From Blastococcus sp. TF02A-30 (GTDB lineage Bacteria > Actinomycetota > Actinomycetes > Mycobacteriales > Geodermatophilaceae), in contig NZ_QOHJ01000001.1 in NCBI RefSeq assembly GCF_003319185.1, forward strand, positions 682,001 through 746,000: a stretch of DNA of 64,000 nucleotides, in the 5' to 3' direction. Positions 5,269 to 10,507 of this stretch are shown piece after piece. The notes beneath the pieces were generated by a model. It was not told the DNA's origin. It did no database searches and saw only the letters and a program-made list of their open reading frames with translations. Numbering within the stretch: position 1 is the stretch's first letter; each line of letters begins with the position of its first letter. The position numbers were made by a program, and so were the translations under genes.

Positions 5269-5697
5269 GTGGACCGGCACCTGATCGAGCTGCTGCGCGC
5301 CAACGGGCGGGCCAGCTACGCCGAGCTCGCCCGCCAGGTGGGGCTGTCCTCGCCGGCCGTGCACGAGCGGGTCGGCAAGCTGGAGGCGGCCGGGGTGATC
5401 AGCGGCTACCGCGCCGTCATCGACCCGTCGTCGGTCGGGCTGGACGTCACCGCGCTGATCGGCGTCATCGAGAGCGACTCGGTCGACGACACCGGCCTCG
5501 AGGCGGCCATGCGGGAGGTCCCCGGCATCGAGGACTGCTGGCGGGTGGCCGGCAGCGAGGGCTACGTGCTCAAGGTGCGTGTGGCGGACATCCCGGCACT
5601 CGAGGCCACCGTCAACGCGTTGAACCGGATCAGAGGTGTCGCGCGCACCCGCACCACGGTGGTGCTGTCGACGAAGTGGGAGGGCCGTCATGGCTGA
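5269..5697 (+). CDS. Lrp/AsnC family transcriptional regulator
   Basis: The 142-residue product has an N-terminal winged helix-turn-helix (residues about 2-50; ELARQVGLSSPAVHERVGKLEAAGVI) followed by an RAM/ligand-binding domain (about 62-135) of the kind that senses amino acids or related small molecules and drives octamer formation. The annotated start GTG at 5269 has no ribosome site at the usual distance. A GGACGGAG at 5245-5252 would instead serve ATC codons at 5257 or 5260, giving the family's usual N-terminus (…DAVDRHLIELL), so the true start may be a rare ATC. Targets are unknown; the neighbouring PLP-enzyme gene is one possibility. Confidence 0.9.
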   Translation: MDRHLIELLRANGRASYAELARQVGLSSPAVHERVGKLEAAGVISGYRAVIDPSSVGLDVTALIGVIESDSVDDTGLEAAMREVPGIEDCWRVAGSEGYVLKVRVADIPALEATVNALNRIRGVARTRTTVVLSTKWEGRHG

Positions 5698-6004
5698 GAG
5701 CACGACCCCCGCGAGCCCGGCAGGCGGCCCGGCCGCGCCGCCCAAGGTGCTGCCCTGGCTGGTGATCCACACCGTCGGCCGGCTCGGCATCTGGGCCCTG
5801 CTCACGCTGATCCTGTGGCAGCTCGGCCTGGACTTCTTCTCCGGCATGCTCTTCGGGCTGCTGCTGTCGATGCCGGTCGCCTACCTGCTGCTGAAGACCT
5901 CCCGCGAGCGGCTGACCGAGGCCCTGGTCGCCCGCAGCGCCGCCCGGCGCGCGGCCAAGGAGGACCTCCGCACCCGGCTCAGCGGCGAGCAGCCCACGGG
6001 CTGA
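5690..6004 (+). CDS. DUF4229-type small membrane protein
   Basis: The 104-residue protein has a disordered N-terminus, two membrane helices (about residues 23-46 and 50-70: LPWLVIHTVGRLGIWALLTL and FFSGMLFGLLLSMPVAYLLL) and a basic cytoplasmic tail with repeated RRAAKEDLR-type sequence. This matches the architecture of DUF4229 proteins found next to menaquinone genes in actinobacteria; the assignment is by recognition, not search. The start overlaps the end of the regulator gene by eight bases, so the two are probably co-transcribed. No function is known. Confidence 0.75.
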   Translation: MAESTTPASPAGGPAAPPKVLPWLVIHTVGRLGIWALLTLILWQLGLDFFSGMLFGLLLSMPVAYLLLKTSRERLTEALVARSAARRAAKEDLRTRLSGEQPTG

Positions 6005-6016
6005 CCGCCGGGCAGG

Positions 6017-8476
6017 TCAGCCGGTCGCCGGCACGCTCTCGGCCAGGTGCGCCAGGACGTCGGAGTTGTAGGTCTCCGTCGCCTGCACGTAGGCCCAGTG
6101 CTTCACCGGCCGCGCGCCGAAGCGGGCCTTGTGCAGGCCGGCGCTCATCCCGTAGAGCACCCGGGCCGCCCCGTGCCGGGTGGCCGAGCGCAGCGCCTGC
6201 AGCAGCAGCACCTGGTAGCTGTGGTGCGTGGGCACCCAGGCGTGGTCGAGGCCCACGAAGACCGGTGCCACGTGCGTCGCGCCCACGTGCTGCGCGGCGA
6301 ACGCGACCGGTTCCGGCCCCGCCTCGTCCAGGTGCAGCAGCACGACCTCCCAGCCCGCGTGCTCCAGCACCGCGTCGACGACCCGCCGCGGCAGCGGGAA
6401 GACGTTCAGCTCGAACGAGCGGGCGTGCACCGCCCGGTACAGCCGGTACAGGTGCTGGCGCCGCTCGTCCGGGTAGGCCAGGGCCTCGGGGCTGCCGCCG
6501 GCGAGCACCTCCACCCGGAACCGCGGTTCCCACGCGAGGACGTGGTGGCGCTGGTGGTAGCGGTGCTTGCGGGTGAGCCCGGCGAGGAAGCCCTCGTCGT
6601 CGGCGAAGTCGACCTCGCGCTCCCAGCTCTCCCACACCGGGATGCGGATCAGCCCCTCGCCGAGCAGGAAGGCGTGCAGCTCCTCGTCGTCGTCGGGCAG
6701 GTCGCGCAGCACGACCGCGGCGGCGCCCGCGGCGTCCTCCTCGGCCCGCGCGGCCTGCAGCACCACCCGCAGCGCCGTCCGCCAGTCGCGGGAGCGGTCC
6801 AGGTAGAGGTGGTCGCCCTCCGTGAGCAGCGAGCCGGTCGCGACCATCGGGGAGGTGAGGAACCAGGCGTCCTCGGCGCGGCGCCGCTCCACCTCCCGCG
6901 AGACGTGGGCGGGGGAGAGCATGTCGTCCTTCCACAGCGCCGTCGTGAGGAAGGTGGCGGCCACCGGGGTGCCGTCGGCGTCGCGGACGACGAGGTAGGT
7001 GAAGTCCCAGGCGTCCTCCGTCTGGCCGGCCGCTCCCGCGCCGCCGGTGCCGAACACCGCCTCCAGGGCCCGCAGCCCGGCTGCATCGAAGGCGCCGCGG
7101 TCACCGAGCAGCCGGTCCCACTCGGCGGTGTCGAGGTCGTCGATCGTGCGGTGCCGCTCCAGGGTCAGCGCCGGGCGCGGCGGCGCGGTGCGCTGCTCGG
7201 GGAGCACGGGAGGGCGGCCGCGCAGCTGGCGGGCGAAGGCGCGGCGCAGGTCGTCGACCGTGGCGCCCTCCTCGGCGATCGCCGCCGGCAGGTGCTCGGC
7301 CAGCGCGGCCACCACGCCCGCGACGTCGTCCTCGGTGTGGTGGGCGGTCAACGTGAGCCGGGCGCCGCAGCGCTTGGCCGGCACGGCGGGGAAGGTGGCG
7401 GTGTTGGTGAAGAAGCCGCTCTCGCGGAGCCGCTCGGTGAGCCGGTAGGCCACGGCCGCGGTGCCGGCGCCCACGTACCGGATCGGTGCCTCCGAGTCCG
7501 ACACCAGCGGCAGCCGCGCCTCGGCGGCCAGCCGGTTGAACAACCGGATGCGGTCGCGGAGCAGCTCCTGCCGGGCCGCGATCTCGGGCGTGCGGTGCAG
7601 CTCGGCCGAGGCGAGGACGGCGCCCAGCATCGGCGGCTGCACCGGTCCGGAGAAGATCAGCGGCCCGCCGACGGTGAGGGTGAGCCGGCGGGACTCCTCG
7701 TCGGGGAAGGTGATGGCGCCGCCGGCTGCCGCGAAGGACTTGTTCAGCGACGCCGCCACGACGGTCCGCGCCAGGGTGGCGGGGGACAGGTGCTCGAGGG
7801 CGTGGCCGCGGCCGTGCCGGCCGGTCCACGACGCGGCGTGCGCGTCGTCGACGTAGAGCCAGAGGTTCTCGTACCGGGCGGCCAGCTCGTCGAGCGCCGC
7901 GGCGGGCATGAAGTCGGCGTACATGGAGTAGAGCCCGTCGGCGGCGTACCAGACCCGTCGATCGGGGTGGCCCTGCAGCCGCTTCTCCAGCGTGCGCAGA
8001 TCGTTGTGCGGGATCAGCTCGGTGGGCACCCCACCGGCCTGGACCAGCTTGGCCGCGGTCTGCACGGAGTGGTGCACCTGGTGGTCGAGCAGCAGCACGT
8101 CGCTGCCGGTGATCAGCGTCGGCATGGTGGCCAGGTGGCCCATGGACGTCGACGGCGTCACGACCACCGGCCGGCCGAACAGCCCGGCCAGGCTCTCCTC
8201 GGCCTCGCGGTACAGCGGCGCCGAGGCGTAGGCGCGGGACGAGGAGAACTGGGTGCCGAACCGGTCGACGGCGTCGCGCACGGCGGCCTTGAGCCGCGGA
8301 TCGGTCTCCAGCCCGAGGTAGGAGCAGGAGCCGAAGTTCACCAGCCGGCGGCCGAGGACGGTGACGTGCCGGCCGTCGAGGCCGTCGTCCTCGACGTGGT
8401 TGTGCAGCAGCCCGCGGCGCACCCCCTCGGAGATGACCTCGTCGACCGCGGTCTGCAGCTCCTCGGCGGTGGCCAT
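6017..8476 (-). CDS. Fused alpha-oxoamine synthase / GNAT-fold N-acyltransferase
   Basis: The 819-residue protein has two parts. Residues about 15-410 are a fold-type I PLP enzyme of the alpha-oxoamine synthase family (BioF, KBL, serine palmitoyltransferase, CqsA): it keeps the stacking histidine near 135, the Asp210-Asp-Ala-His213 motif and the Schiff-base lysine K246 in ASLNKSFAAAGG. Such enzymes condense an amino acid with an acyl thioester and release CO2. Residues about 430-819 resemble FemAB/COG3146-like acyl-CoA N-acyltransferases (KHRYHQRHH and HKARFGARPVKHWAY regions). It lies 32 bases after menA, with a GGGAGGG ribosome site, and is likely co-transcribed with it. Substrates are unknown; a biotin role is unlikely given the fusion and context. 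Confidence 0.85.
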   Translation of the reverse strand: MATAEELQTAVDEVISEGVRRGLLHNHVEDDGLDGRHVTVLGRRLVNFGSCSYLGLETDPRLKAAVRDAVDRFGTQFSSSRAYASAPLYREAEESLAGLFGRPVVVTPSTSMGHLATMPTLITGSDVLLLDHQVHHSVQTAAKLVQAGGVPTELIPHNDLRTLEKRLQGHPDRRVWYAADGLYSMYADFMPAAALDELAARYENLWLYVDDAHAASWTGRHGRGHALEHLSPATLARTVVAASLNKSFAAAGGAITFPDEESRRLTLTVGGPLIFSGPVQPPMLGAVLASAELHRTPEIAARQELLRDRIRLFNRLAAEARLPLVSDSEAPIRYVGAGTAAVAYRLTERLRESGFFTNTATFPAVPAKRCGARLTLTAHHTEDDVAGVVAALAEHLPAAIAEEGATVDDLRRAFARQLRGRPPVLPEQRTAPPRPALTLERHRTIDDLDTAEWDRLLGDRGAFDAAGLRALEAVFGTGGAGAAGQTEDAWDFTYLVVRDADGTPVAATFLTTALWKDDMLSPAHVSREVERRRAEDAWFLTSPMVATGSLLTEGDHLYLDRSRDWRTALRVVLQAARAEEDAAGAAAVVLRDLPDDDEELHAFLLGEGLIRIPVWESWEREVDFADDEGFLAGLTRKHRYHQRHHVLAWEPRFRVEVLAGGSPEALAYPDERRQHLYRLYRAVHARSFELNVFPLPRRVVDAVLEHAGWEVVLLHLDEAGPEPVAFAAQHVGATHVAPVFVGLDHAWVPTHHSYQVLLLQALRSATRHGAARVLYGMSAGLHKARFGARPVKHWAYVQATETYNSDVLAHLAESVPATG

Positions 8477-8508: not shown

Positions 8509-9381
8509 TCATCCGCTCAGCGCGAGCCCGGCGCCGAGGAGCACCCCCGTGACGAGGGTGAGCCGCCCGGTGCCCGCCAGCGCGCCGATGAGGGCCGGCC
8601 CCCGCCCGCCCGTGAGCACCGTACGTGCTGGTGGGACGGCCAGCGGTGCGGCCAGCAGGGTCAGCAGCGCCCAGGGCCGGTCGATTCCCACCACCACGAC
8701 GACGGCGAAGGCGGCGGCGAAGAGCCCCGCGAAGAGCAGCCGCGTGCCGCGATCGCCGAGCAGCACGGCCAGGGTGCGCTTGCCGACGGCTGCGTCGCCC
8801 TCGATGTCACGCAGGTTGTTGACCACCAGGATCGCCACGATCAGCAGGCCGGGCGGCAGCGAGACCGCCCACGCCAGGGCGGGCAGGGTGCCGGTCTGCA
8901 CGTAGGTCGTCCCCACGACGGCGACGGGGCCGAAGAAGACGAAGACGAACACCTCGCCCAGGGCCCGGTAGCCGTAGGGGATCGGCCCGCCGGTGTACGT
9001 CCAGGCCGCCAGCATGCAGACGGCGCCGACGGCGACCAGCCACCAGCTCGACAGCGCGGCCAGCGCCAGCCCGGCCGCACCGGCCGCCGCGAAGGAGAGC
9101 AGCGCGGCGACCAGGACCTGCCGCGGCGCGGCCGCGCCCGAACCGACCAGCCGCATGGGCCCGACCCGGTCGGCGTCGGTGCCGCGCGTGCCGTCGGAGT
9201 AGTCGTTGGCGTAGTTCACCGCGACCTGCAGGGCCAGGGCGACGAGGAGCGCGAGCAGCGCGGTGGAGAGGCGGAAGCCGTCGAGCGCGGCGGCCGCGCC
9301 GGTGCCGACGAGCACCGGGGCGACCGCGGCGGGCAGCGTGCGGGGGCGGGCGCCGGCCAGCCACTGGGCGGGGGTGGCCAT
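8509..9381 (-). CDS. menA: 1,4-dihydroxy-2-naphthoate polyprenyltransferase MenA
   Basis: MenA attaches the polyprenyl tail to 1,4-dihydroxy-2-naphthoate in the membrane, giving demethylmenaquinone. The 290-residue product is a UbiA-superfamily protein with the first Asp-rich motif NYANDYSDGTRGTD, the second motif region NNLRDIEGDAAVGKRTLAVLLG, and about eight to nine hydrophobic helices. The start codon shares one base with the menE stop (TGATG), showing translational coupling. The tail donor is probably the product of the polyprenyl diphosphate synthase at 33841-34908, and the methyltransferase at 14799-15518 acts next. Confidence 0.96.
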   Translation of the reverse strand: MATPAQWLAGARPRTLPAAVAPVLVGTGAAAALDGFRLSTALLALLVALALQVAVNYANDYSDGTRGTDADRVGPMRLVGSGAAAPRQVLVAALLSFAAAGAAGLALAALSSWWLVAVGAVCMLAAWTYTGGPIPYGYRALGEVFVFVFFGPVAVVGTTYVQTGTLPALAWAVSLPPGLLIVAILVVNNLRDIEGDAAVGKRTLAVLLGDRGTRLLFAGLFAAAFAVVVVVGIDRPWALLTLLAAPLAVPPARTVLTGGRGPALIGALAGTGRLTLVTGVLLGAGLALSG

Positions 9382-10493
9382 CAGACCTCCGGGGTCAGCG
9401 CCGCGGCGGCGCGTCGGTCGGGCTTGCCGGTGTGCAGGGTCGGGACGGCGGGGATCGGGTGCACCGCCCGCGGTGCGGAGGGGGCGCCGAGCCGCTCGGT
9501 GACCCAGGCGCGCAGCTCATGGAGCTCCGGCAGCGGCCCGGACGGGACGACGGCGGCGACCACGCGCTGCCCCCACTCGGGGTCGGGCCGGCCGAAGACG
9601 ACGGCGTCGGCGACGGCCGGGTGCTCACGCAGCGCGGCCTCCACCGCGGCCGGCGCCACGTTGACCCCACCGGAGATGACCACGTCGTCGAGCCGGCCCA
9701 GGACGGTGAGCCGGCCGTCGGTCAGCGTGCCGGCGTCGCGGGTGCGGAACCAGCCGCCGGCGAACGCCTCCTCGGTCGCCGCCGGGTCGAGCCGGTAGCC
9801 CCGCGCCAGCACGGGCCCGGCCAGCTCGATCCCGTCGGCGACCCGGACGTCGACGCCGCGGAGGGGCTCGCCGTCGTAGATGCAGCCGCCGGCGGTCTCG
9901 GTCATCCCGTAGGTGGTGACGACCCGGACGCCCTCGGCGCGGGCGCGGTCGAGCAGCGCCGGGTCGGTCGCCGCGCCGCCGACCAGGACCGCGTCGAACG
10001 CGCGCAGGGCGTCGGGCTCGGTGTCGAGGAAGCGGCGCAGCTGGGTGGGGACCAGCGACGTGTAGCGGCGGTCGTCGCCCGGCATCCGCGCCACGGCCGC
10101 GGCGAGCGGCTCGTCCCCTGCCAGCCGGGCGACCGGCCGGTCGGCCAGCGCGGCCCGGGCGAGCACCTGGAGCCCGGCGATCGCCGACACCGGCAGCGCG
10201 AGCAGCCAGCTCCCCGGCCCGCCGATCCGCTGCAGGGTCGCGGTGGCCGAGGCGCGCACGGCGTCCGCGGAGAGCAGCACGCCACGGCCGCCGCCGGTGG
10301 AACCGGAGGTGACGACGACGAGGTCCGCCCCGGGCTCCAGCGGCTCCTCGGGGCGCAGCACGGCGCGGGCGGCGTCGACGACGGCGGGCGGACCCGCGGG
10401 CAGGACGGCGAGGGGGCGCTCGCCGTCGAGGGCGGCGCGGAGGTGGTCGGTGCTGAGGTCCGCGGCGGCCACGGGGGAGAGGTACGCAGCCAC
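9381..10493 (-). CDS. menE: o-Succinylbenzoate-CoA ligase MenE
   Basis: This is a 370-residue member of the adenylate-forming family, short as is usual for actinobacterial MenE. The ATP-binding P-loop is VVTSGSTGGGRGVLLS, the A5 region is VVTTYGMTETAGGCIYDG, the hinge region is VLGRLDDVVISGGVNVAPAAVE, and the C-terminal lysine is in HTGKPDRRA. It activates o-succinylbenzoate from MenC for ring closure by MenB, which is not in this window. A TTG at 10502 would extend it by three residues, but TAGGCT at 10502-10507 looks like a -10 element placed eight bases before the GTG at 10493, favouring a leaderless start there. Confidence 0.93.
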   Translation of the reverse strand: MAAYLSPVAAADLSTDHLRAALDGERPLAVLPAGPPAVVDAARAVLRPEEPLEPGADLVVVTSGSTGGGRGVLLSADAVRASATATLQRIGGPGSWLLALPVSAIAGLQVLARAALADRPVARLAGDEPLAAAVARMPGDDRRYTSLVPTQLRRFLDTEPDALRAFDAVLVGGAATDPALLDRARAEGVRVVTTYGMTETAGGCIYDGEPLRGVDVRVADGIELAGPVLARGYRLDPAATEEAFAGGWFRTRDAGTLTDGRLTVLGRLDDVVISGGVNVAPAAVEAALREHPAVADAVVFGRPDPEWGQRVVAAVVPSGPLPELHELRAWVTERLGAPSAPRAVHPIPAVPTLHTGKPDRRAAAALTPEV

Positions 10494-10501
10494 GAGGGGC
10501 A

Positions 10502-10507
10502 AGCCTA
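10502..10507 (-). promoter_or_regulatory. Candidate -10 element of leaderless menE transcript
   Basis: TAGGCT on the minus strand fits the actinobacterial TANNNT -10 consensus and lies eight bases upstream of the GTG at 10493. No ribosome site separates them, so a leaderless mRNA is inferred. Confidence 0.5.

Follow-up and report, generated by a model that had tools for sequence, protein, structure and literature searches.

In the CqsA/CqsS and LqsA/LqsS systems the gene of the synthase adjoins that of a sensor, as described in the accessible part of the source (PMC3376566). The partly accessible reports on BioF2 (Rv0032) of Mycobacterium tuberculosis place an alpha-oxoamine synthase (AOS) and a region of the N-acyltransferase superfamily in one chain of unknown function (PMC12910592, PMC6923341), and the accessible portion of the work on DhpH, an enzyme of dehydrophos biosynthesis, assigns to its C-terminal FemX-like GNAT domain the aminoacylation of an amine (PMC12945691). 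Here we analyze a stretch of 64,000 nucleotides of Blastococcus sp. TF02A-30 (contig NZ_QOHJ01000001.1, positions 682,001 to 746,000; hereafter the window) in which a single gene encodes an AOS joined to a tandem-GNAT, FemX-like domain. The observation that is new here is that many relatives of this fusion adjoin sensor genes. We give an even chance to the interpretation that the protein is a bifunctional, two-step synthase that would produce an N-acylated alpha-aminoketone, often as the ligand of a neighboring sensor.

The best curated model of the AOS half is NCBIfam PRK07505/NF005697 (270 bits over residues 40-396, below the 342-bit cut-off), which represents an uncharacterized AOS subfamily and, with its 405 positions, covers the AOS half only. 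The same model ranks first for the four other fusions scanned, and all five proteins score between 249 and 289 bits, under the cut-off of 342. AOS chains in the PDB match this half with up to 145 bits. Upon alignment with Escherichia coli BioF, the residues H133, D204, H207, K236, and R361 correspond to H135, D210, H213, K246, and R373 of the window protein, which are identical in 67/67 aligned fusion relatives. We take these residues to have the usual roles at the AOS cofactor site, namely the lysine that holds the pyridoxal phosphate (PLP), the Asp and His, the stacking His and the substrate Arg, such that Arg373 is the arginine expected to contact the substrate carboxylate. The models for specific activities include TIGR00858 (8-amino-7-oxononanoate synthase, BioF; 162 bits, cut-off 426) and the serine palmitoyltransferase equivalogs NF047600 (134.5 bits, cut-off 640), NF047599 (125.5, cut-off 500), and NF047603 (96, cut-off 670); the glycine C-acetyltransferase and ALAS models are also far under their cut-offs and weaker than PRK07505. 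At the positions of BioF Arg21 and Arg349, which presumably bind the pimeloyl moiety, the window protein has His25 and Thr361. Because the catalytic residues are kept and the pimeloyl positions are occupied by His and Thr, this half looks, as judged from its sequence, like an AOS with the chemistry retained and an acyl substrate other than that of BioF.

The AlphaFold2 prediction for residues 436-819 is a confident one (predicted local distance difference test score, pLDDT, 95.2; predicted template-modeling score, pTM, 0.91), and Foldseek and VIA-align comparisons of the predicted structure identify two GNAT folds in one chain, with the FemX-type, aminoacyl-tRNA-dependent enzymes as the closest folds. 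The residues D518, S526, R591, D592, Y754, G776, and K783 are invariant in 67/67 relatives. Among three relatives scanned, the C-terminal half matches PF13480 (cut-off 22) in L022 (27.8 bits) and P0192 (41.3 bits) and not in L011, and one of the two positive proteins also matches PF04339 (FemAB_like), a family that we take to be linked to COG3146; moreover, precomputed PF00155 and/or PF13480 assignments are given for most of the best 120 relatives. The window protein itself has no Pfam match at E <= 0.001 and three chance-level matches up to E 10. Together, the AOS models and the predicted fold bear out a preliminary description of this DNA, which had recognized an AOS fused to a GNAT/FemAB-like domain and had numbered the Asp210/His213/Lys246 triad correctly.

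The fusion is widespread. In a protein search that scored only the candidates with the most words in common with the query, the best 120 of 984 matches are 63-95% identical to the query with a coverage of 81-100%, nearly all of them full length; the genera among the matches listed include Blastococcus, Geodermatophilus, Dactylosporangium, Motilibacter, and Actinoplanes. One listed relative bears the NCBI name 'bifunctional aminotransferase class I/II-fold pyridoxal phosphate-dependent enzyme/GNA...', so that the pairing of the two domains has already been noticed in NCBI naming, without a function. A scan of species genomes with two peptide patterns yielded, among the best 80 of 111 loci, whole fusions in Actinomycetota (including Solirubrobacter and Mycobacterium angelicum) and many Bacteroidota, further loci in bins labeled Deltaproteobacteria or Myxococcota, and three further bins labeled Cyanobacteria, Pseudomonadales, and Gammaproteobacteria; other fusions, which the preliminary description had proposed to look for, thus exist in three phyla and a few bins of others. 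A quickly built tree of 67 rows, without bootstrap and including 16 protein rows without a phylum label, separates the Bacteroidota (37), the Myxococcota (6), and the labeled Actinomycetota (6) each from the remaining rows by a single branch. A search for unfused GNAT halves gave 107 matches among 7996 scored candidates; four of these were inspected, of which two start within the AOS half and the other two shortly past it, on short contigs, and on this basis we read most GNAT-only matches as probable partial frames. Across the Actinomycetota, 2/396 genomes were positive, including that of the window, the other being a weak match at model positions 278-353. A literature search, with most subscription papers outside its scope, recognized no paper about an AOS-GNAT fusion and found none that joins bacterial ceramide synthase, GNAT, and serine palmitoyltransferase.

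The contextual information from gene neighborhoods carries the proposed link to signaling. Neighboring genes were called by a longest-open-reading-frame rule weighted by homology and then clustered, the signaling cluster being a single-linkage cluster of 121 members; some calls in G+C-rich loci are spurious (the frames upstream of the fusion in L009 and L006 have no Pfam match), and some loci are cut by contig ends. At positions -3, -2, and -1 relative to the fusion, members of the signaling cluster are found in 19/72, 22/73, and 9/75 loci, and at +1, +2, and +3 in 28/74, 8/69, and 5/66 loci, compared with 0 to 4 loci (of 26 to 71) at any single offset between 4 and 9, upstream or downstream. 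All 18 members of the cluster that were scanned against Pfam contain signaling domains and include histidine or hybrid kinases, response regulators, and GGDEF-EAL proteins. De-replicated counts used 73/79 loci with a frame of at least 700 residues (L071, L077, L079, L081, L038, and L039 were excluded, L076 has no assigned frame, and the window, L001, and L002 did not enter the counts). At 60% identity, 18/27 groups have a gene for a histidine kinase, a receiver, or a GGDEF/EAL protein no more than three genes away, and such genes make up 32/142 of the near genes against 3/169 of those between offsets 5 and 9 (p 2.4e-9 in a Fisher test that takes each gene as independent). Several partners follow the direction of the fusion at short distances (7 bases in L030, 10 in L018, 37 in L032 from Pontibacter, and 112 in L063) or overlap it (by 16 bases in L007 from Actinoplanes), and in Solirubrobacter (L012, L013, and L015) a divergent cluster gene starts 49-104 bases away, in L012 encoding a PAS-GGDEF-EAL protein. 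In Spirilliplanes (L071), an AOS without the GNAT half is followed by a PAS-GGDEF-EAL gene 54 bases downstream. The type of partner differs between clades while the adjacency often stays, and such sensor adjacency of changing type recalls the pattern of the synthase-sensor pairs CqsA-CqsS and LqsA-LqsS.

Several observations weigh against this interpretation. The alpha-hydroxyketone autoinducer synthase model NF005526 matches with only 72 bits (cut-off 428), and the CoA-type motif [RQ]xxGx[GA] is found in only 14/64 rows, at scattered positions. The enrichment weakens with coarser de-replication, to 5/12 groups with a signaling neighbor at 50% (p 0.005) and 1/3 at 45% (p 0.21), and on the tree the trait of a signaling gene within three genes (40/51 labeled rows) requires eight changes. 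No signaling gene lies within three genes in the menA-linked loci L003, L004, L005, and L010, in L008, L009, L011, L014, L017, L064, L065, L067, and L069, or in the Bacteroidota loci L020, L078, and L080; among the loci that appear to encode an AOS only (L038, L039, L071, and L081), L071 alone has such a neighbor. The window locus likewise has no sensor gene nearby, and 5/6 other Geodermatophilaceae-like loci share its menA neighborhood. By a crude hydropathy cut, 15/24 neighbor proteins have no membrane span, unlike the six-helix CqsS and LqsS. Finally, a LuxR-type and an OmpR-type regulator are among the 18 scanned partners, which fits the possibility that signaling neighbors regulate the enzyme and do not respond to its product.

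With these points in view, the mechanism that we favor would run as follows. In the first step, the AOS half would use PLP to condense an amino acid with an acyl thioester in a decarboxylative Claisen reaction, which would yield an alpha-aminoketone. Free alpha-aminoketones self-condense, dimerizing to pyrazines; in the second step, the tandem-GNAT half would acylate the free amine in place, giving a stable N-acyl-alpha-aminoketone. The architecture, the conserved residues, the fold, the enriched neighborhoods, and the accessory distribution are observed, whereas we infer both reactions, their order, the acyl donor, the role in signaling, and the co-transcription. Acyl-CoA, the donor assumed in the preliminary description, is a presumptive one, the closest folds being those of aminoacyl-tRNA-dependent enzymes. 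In many lineages the product would probably be the ligand of the adjacent hybrid histidine kinase, of a kinase acting with a LuxR-type regulator, or of a PAS-GGDEF-EAL protein, an arrangement that would amount to an autoinducer-like system analogous to CqsA-CqsS. Given how often relatives adjoin genes of sensors, the enzyme may make a signal and not a membrane lipid. In the lineage of the window, the gene appears to have been gained, or rarely kept, after menA; it is probably co-transcribed with menE-menA, and a sensor, if any, would be encoded elsewhere. A bolder and more tentative proposal is that the fusions are autoinducer synthases of a new class, in which the aminoketone formed by the AOS would receive an acyl group, or an aminoacyl group from aminoacyl-tRNA, through the FemX-like half, to be read by adjacent sensors in at least three phyla. 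The neighborhood of the M. angelicum copy (L067, 2091-15106) fits a small-molecule product derived from an acyl thioester, given that the fusion lies among polyketide synthase genes, with a modular polyketide synthase of 2174 residues three genes upstream and, next downstream, a protein of 894 residues with ketosynthase, acyltransferase, and carrier domains.

Among the alternatives, a somewhat unlikely one is that the product of the fusion is an ordinary secondary metabolite or the precursor of a pigment, and that the neighboring two-component and cyclic di-GMP genes merely control expression of the fusion. This would account for the LuxR-type response regulator beside the L022 copy, with proteins of like length and the same cluster (their domains unscanned) at the equivalent place in other Bacteroidota loci, for the Trans_reg_C-containing regulator next to the Actinoplanes copy, and for the polyketide genes around the M. 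angelicum copy. It accords less well with the lack of a DNA-binding domain in 16/18 scanned partners and with the change of partner type between clades where adjacency often stays.

We consider it improbable that the C-terminal half, in the manner of FemX and of the C-terminal domain of DhpH, moves an amino acid from aminoacyl-tRNA onto the alpha-aminoketone, with the product cyclizing to a pyrazinone-type compound. The closest predicted folds would suit this reaction, but the donor does not follow from fold similarity, and the correspondence between Lys783 and the FemX lysine comes from the order of structural elements. Moreover, the GNAT half is acidic, with a median net charge of -8.5 and -18 in the window protein (64 rows, some including extra AOS residues), and the residue before Lys783 is E in 49, Q in 14, H in 3, and V in 1 of the 67 relatives, as opposed to Phe in DhpH (PMC12945691).

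Less probable again is the sphingoid- or ceramide-like membrane lipid that the preliminary description had put forward. Its suggestion of two consecutive steps, AOS and then N-acyl transfer, remains plausible, as both halves retain their conserved residues in different phyla, but a ceramide product is not supported. In its favor, the AOS half belongs to the family that holds serine palmitoyltransferase, a GNAT-type acyltransferase comes next in the same chain, six loci (L015, L020, L022, L030, L050, and L064) have a short-chain dehydrogenase gene no more than three genes away, and one model of bacterial ceramide synthesis, in the accessible part of its source, places acylation before reduction (PMC11087976). 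Against it stand the serine palmitoyltransferase models, far below their cut-offs; the sensors that form the enriched neighbors; the occurrence in those six loci only of a nearby dehydrogenase, such as a lipid pathway with ketone reduction might need; and the presence of the gene in only 2/56 other genomes of the family, unusual for a structural lipid. In addition, hhalign of the GNAT-half alignment against YghO of E. coli K-12 gave a probability of 0.1%, a weak test with a single, possibly shortened sequence, the K-12 gene running into an IS5 element; yghO of an E. coli B strain is described as a ceramide-acyltransferase homologue in the accessible part of the source (PMC9386255). Thus, a ceramide-like lipid is possible, with little specific in its favor, and we dropped it as the best explanation. 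A role in anti-phage defense was dropped after a PADLOC comparison (E <= 0.01) had found nothing in the window protein, in one relative, or in the DUF7793-type partner described below.

The local arrangement is summarized in the table. The gene order menE, menA, fusion and the coordinates of the fusion were given correctly in the preliminary description, the strand being minus; both men genes score above the NCBIfam equivalog cut-offs. The plus strand across the fusion gene is likewise open for 820 codons (this frame was not itself searched), but the 984 matches of the minus-strand protein at E <= 0.001 identify the minus-strand frame as the gene.

Table. Features of the fusion gene and its surroundings in the window
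Feature	Position	Strand	Basis and remarks
AOS-GNAT fusion gene	6017..8476	minus	819 residues; ATG start; upstream Shine-Dalgarno-like GGGAGGG
AOS half	7271..8476	minus	residues 1-402
Linker	7166..7270	minus	residues 403-437; length varies among relatives (alignment)
Tandem-GNAT/FemX-like half	6017..7165	minus	residues 438-819 and stop
Asp210 (BioF Asp204)	7847..7849	minus	67/67; BioF alignment
His213 (BioF His207)	7838..7840	minus	67/67; BioF alignment
Lys246, expected PLP lysine (BioF Lys236)	7739..7741	minus	67/67; BioF alignment
Arg373 (BioF Arg361)	7358..7360	minus	67/67; BioF alignment
Lys783	6128..6130	minus	67/67; by element order, putatively near the FemX catalytic lysine
menA	8509..9381	minus	32 bases upstream of fusion; NF004751 384 bits, cut-off 264
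menE	9381..10502	minus	one-base overlap with menA; NF005877 347 bits, cut-off 345
DUF4229 gene	5636..6004	plus	PF14012; convergent with fusion; far edge of occupied site (empty-site comparison)
Lrp/AsnC-type regulator	5269..5697	plus	PF01037

The position behind menA, which the preliminary description had considered an odd place for such a gene, finds an explanation in the comparison with empty sites. A full fusion is present in four of the 96 relatives searched (G024, G056, G062, and G090) and is absent from all 22 other genomes of the same genus. In each of these 22, the convergent DUF4229 and AsnC genes come next after menA, with no fusion in between, the gap between menA and DUF4229 being at most 83 bases in 19 genomes and 243, 410, and 524 bases in three (edges from tblastn). 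The fusion occupies this junction in the window, L003, L004 (whose contig is as long as that of L083), and L005; in L084 a frame of 400 residues, HNH-like by eye, stands between the fusion and DUF4229, the contig of L010 ends past the fusion, and L006 has no men gene near. The fusion is therefore accessory in the family of the window, where it favors one site; the order of the genes stands as described, but the accessory insertion removes its oddity and any clue to quinone metabolism, a link that we rejected in view of the 22 genomes. The men genes are bystanders, from which the fusion may borrow a promoter, and the Lrp/AsnC-type regulator, present in the same 22 genomes, is not linked to it.

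Some further observations concern these genomes and loci. The genome of the window encodes a second, unfused AOS (G000:C11:655199-656254, L002) some 26 kb away from the window; among the curated models, that of a beta-type serine palmitoyltransferase fits it best (322 bits, cut-off 500). Comparable AOS matches are present in a number of genomes of the genus. The hybrid kinases L018:4041-6100, L029:2649-5024, and L063:8336-10615, which are encoded beside the fusion, have in common an N-terminal region of about 200 residues without a Pfam match, 33-45% identical among the three and weakly recognizable in L073:7859-9691, which is a candidate sensor domain for the product. A protein of about 130 residues (L032:9496-9897, with homologues in 47 loci), assigned to DUF7793 (PF25056) from the one member scanned, is usually encoded divergently from the fusion or just after it in Bacteroidota, and divergently at -1 in 40/75 loci of all phyla; the literature search found no paper with the term DUF7793. 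In the Myxococcota loci L065 (8762-9961) and L069 (6480-7694), related frames of about 400 residues lie directly upstream of the fusion, that of L065 having no Pfam match.

If the sensor link is functional, the fusions would constitute a synthase-sensor family across Bacteroidota, Myxococcota, and Actinomycetota, phyla in which, to our knowledge, few small-molecule signals are known. Signaling aside, one polypeptide that both forms an unstable aminoketone and caps it would be useful as a biocatalyst. Compared by description and not by sequence, the fusion shares with DhpH a FemX-like C-terminal GNAT domain; the N-terminal half of DhpH is, we assume, a PLP enzyme that makes the amine and is not an AOS. 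BioF2, likewise compared by description and not by sequence, carries its extra domain at the N-terminus according to the accessible parts of the reports, and the fusion offers a way to think about this uncharacterized combination of AOS and acyltransferase. The bacterial sphingolipid pathway (Spt, bCerS, and CerR) also couples an AOS step to an N-acylation step, but on separate proteins, as far as the accessible text describes it (PMC11087976). BioWF is another natural fusion of an AOS, with pimeloyl-CoA synthetase; there, as the available part of the source presents it, the partner supplies the acyl-CoA (PMC9544090), whereas the partner in the present fusion would cap the product. The closest parallel in gene arrangement is with CqsA and LqsA, where the gene of an AOS-type PLP enzyme lies beside that of a sensor kinase; the accessible part of the source mentions no GNAT half for either enzyme (PMC3376566), and many of the sensors beside the fusion differ from their partners in having no membrane spans by our crude cut.

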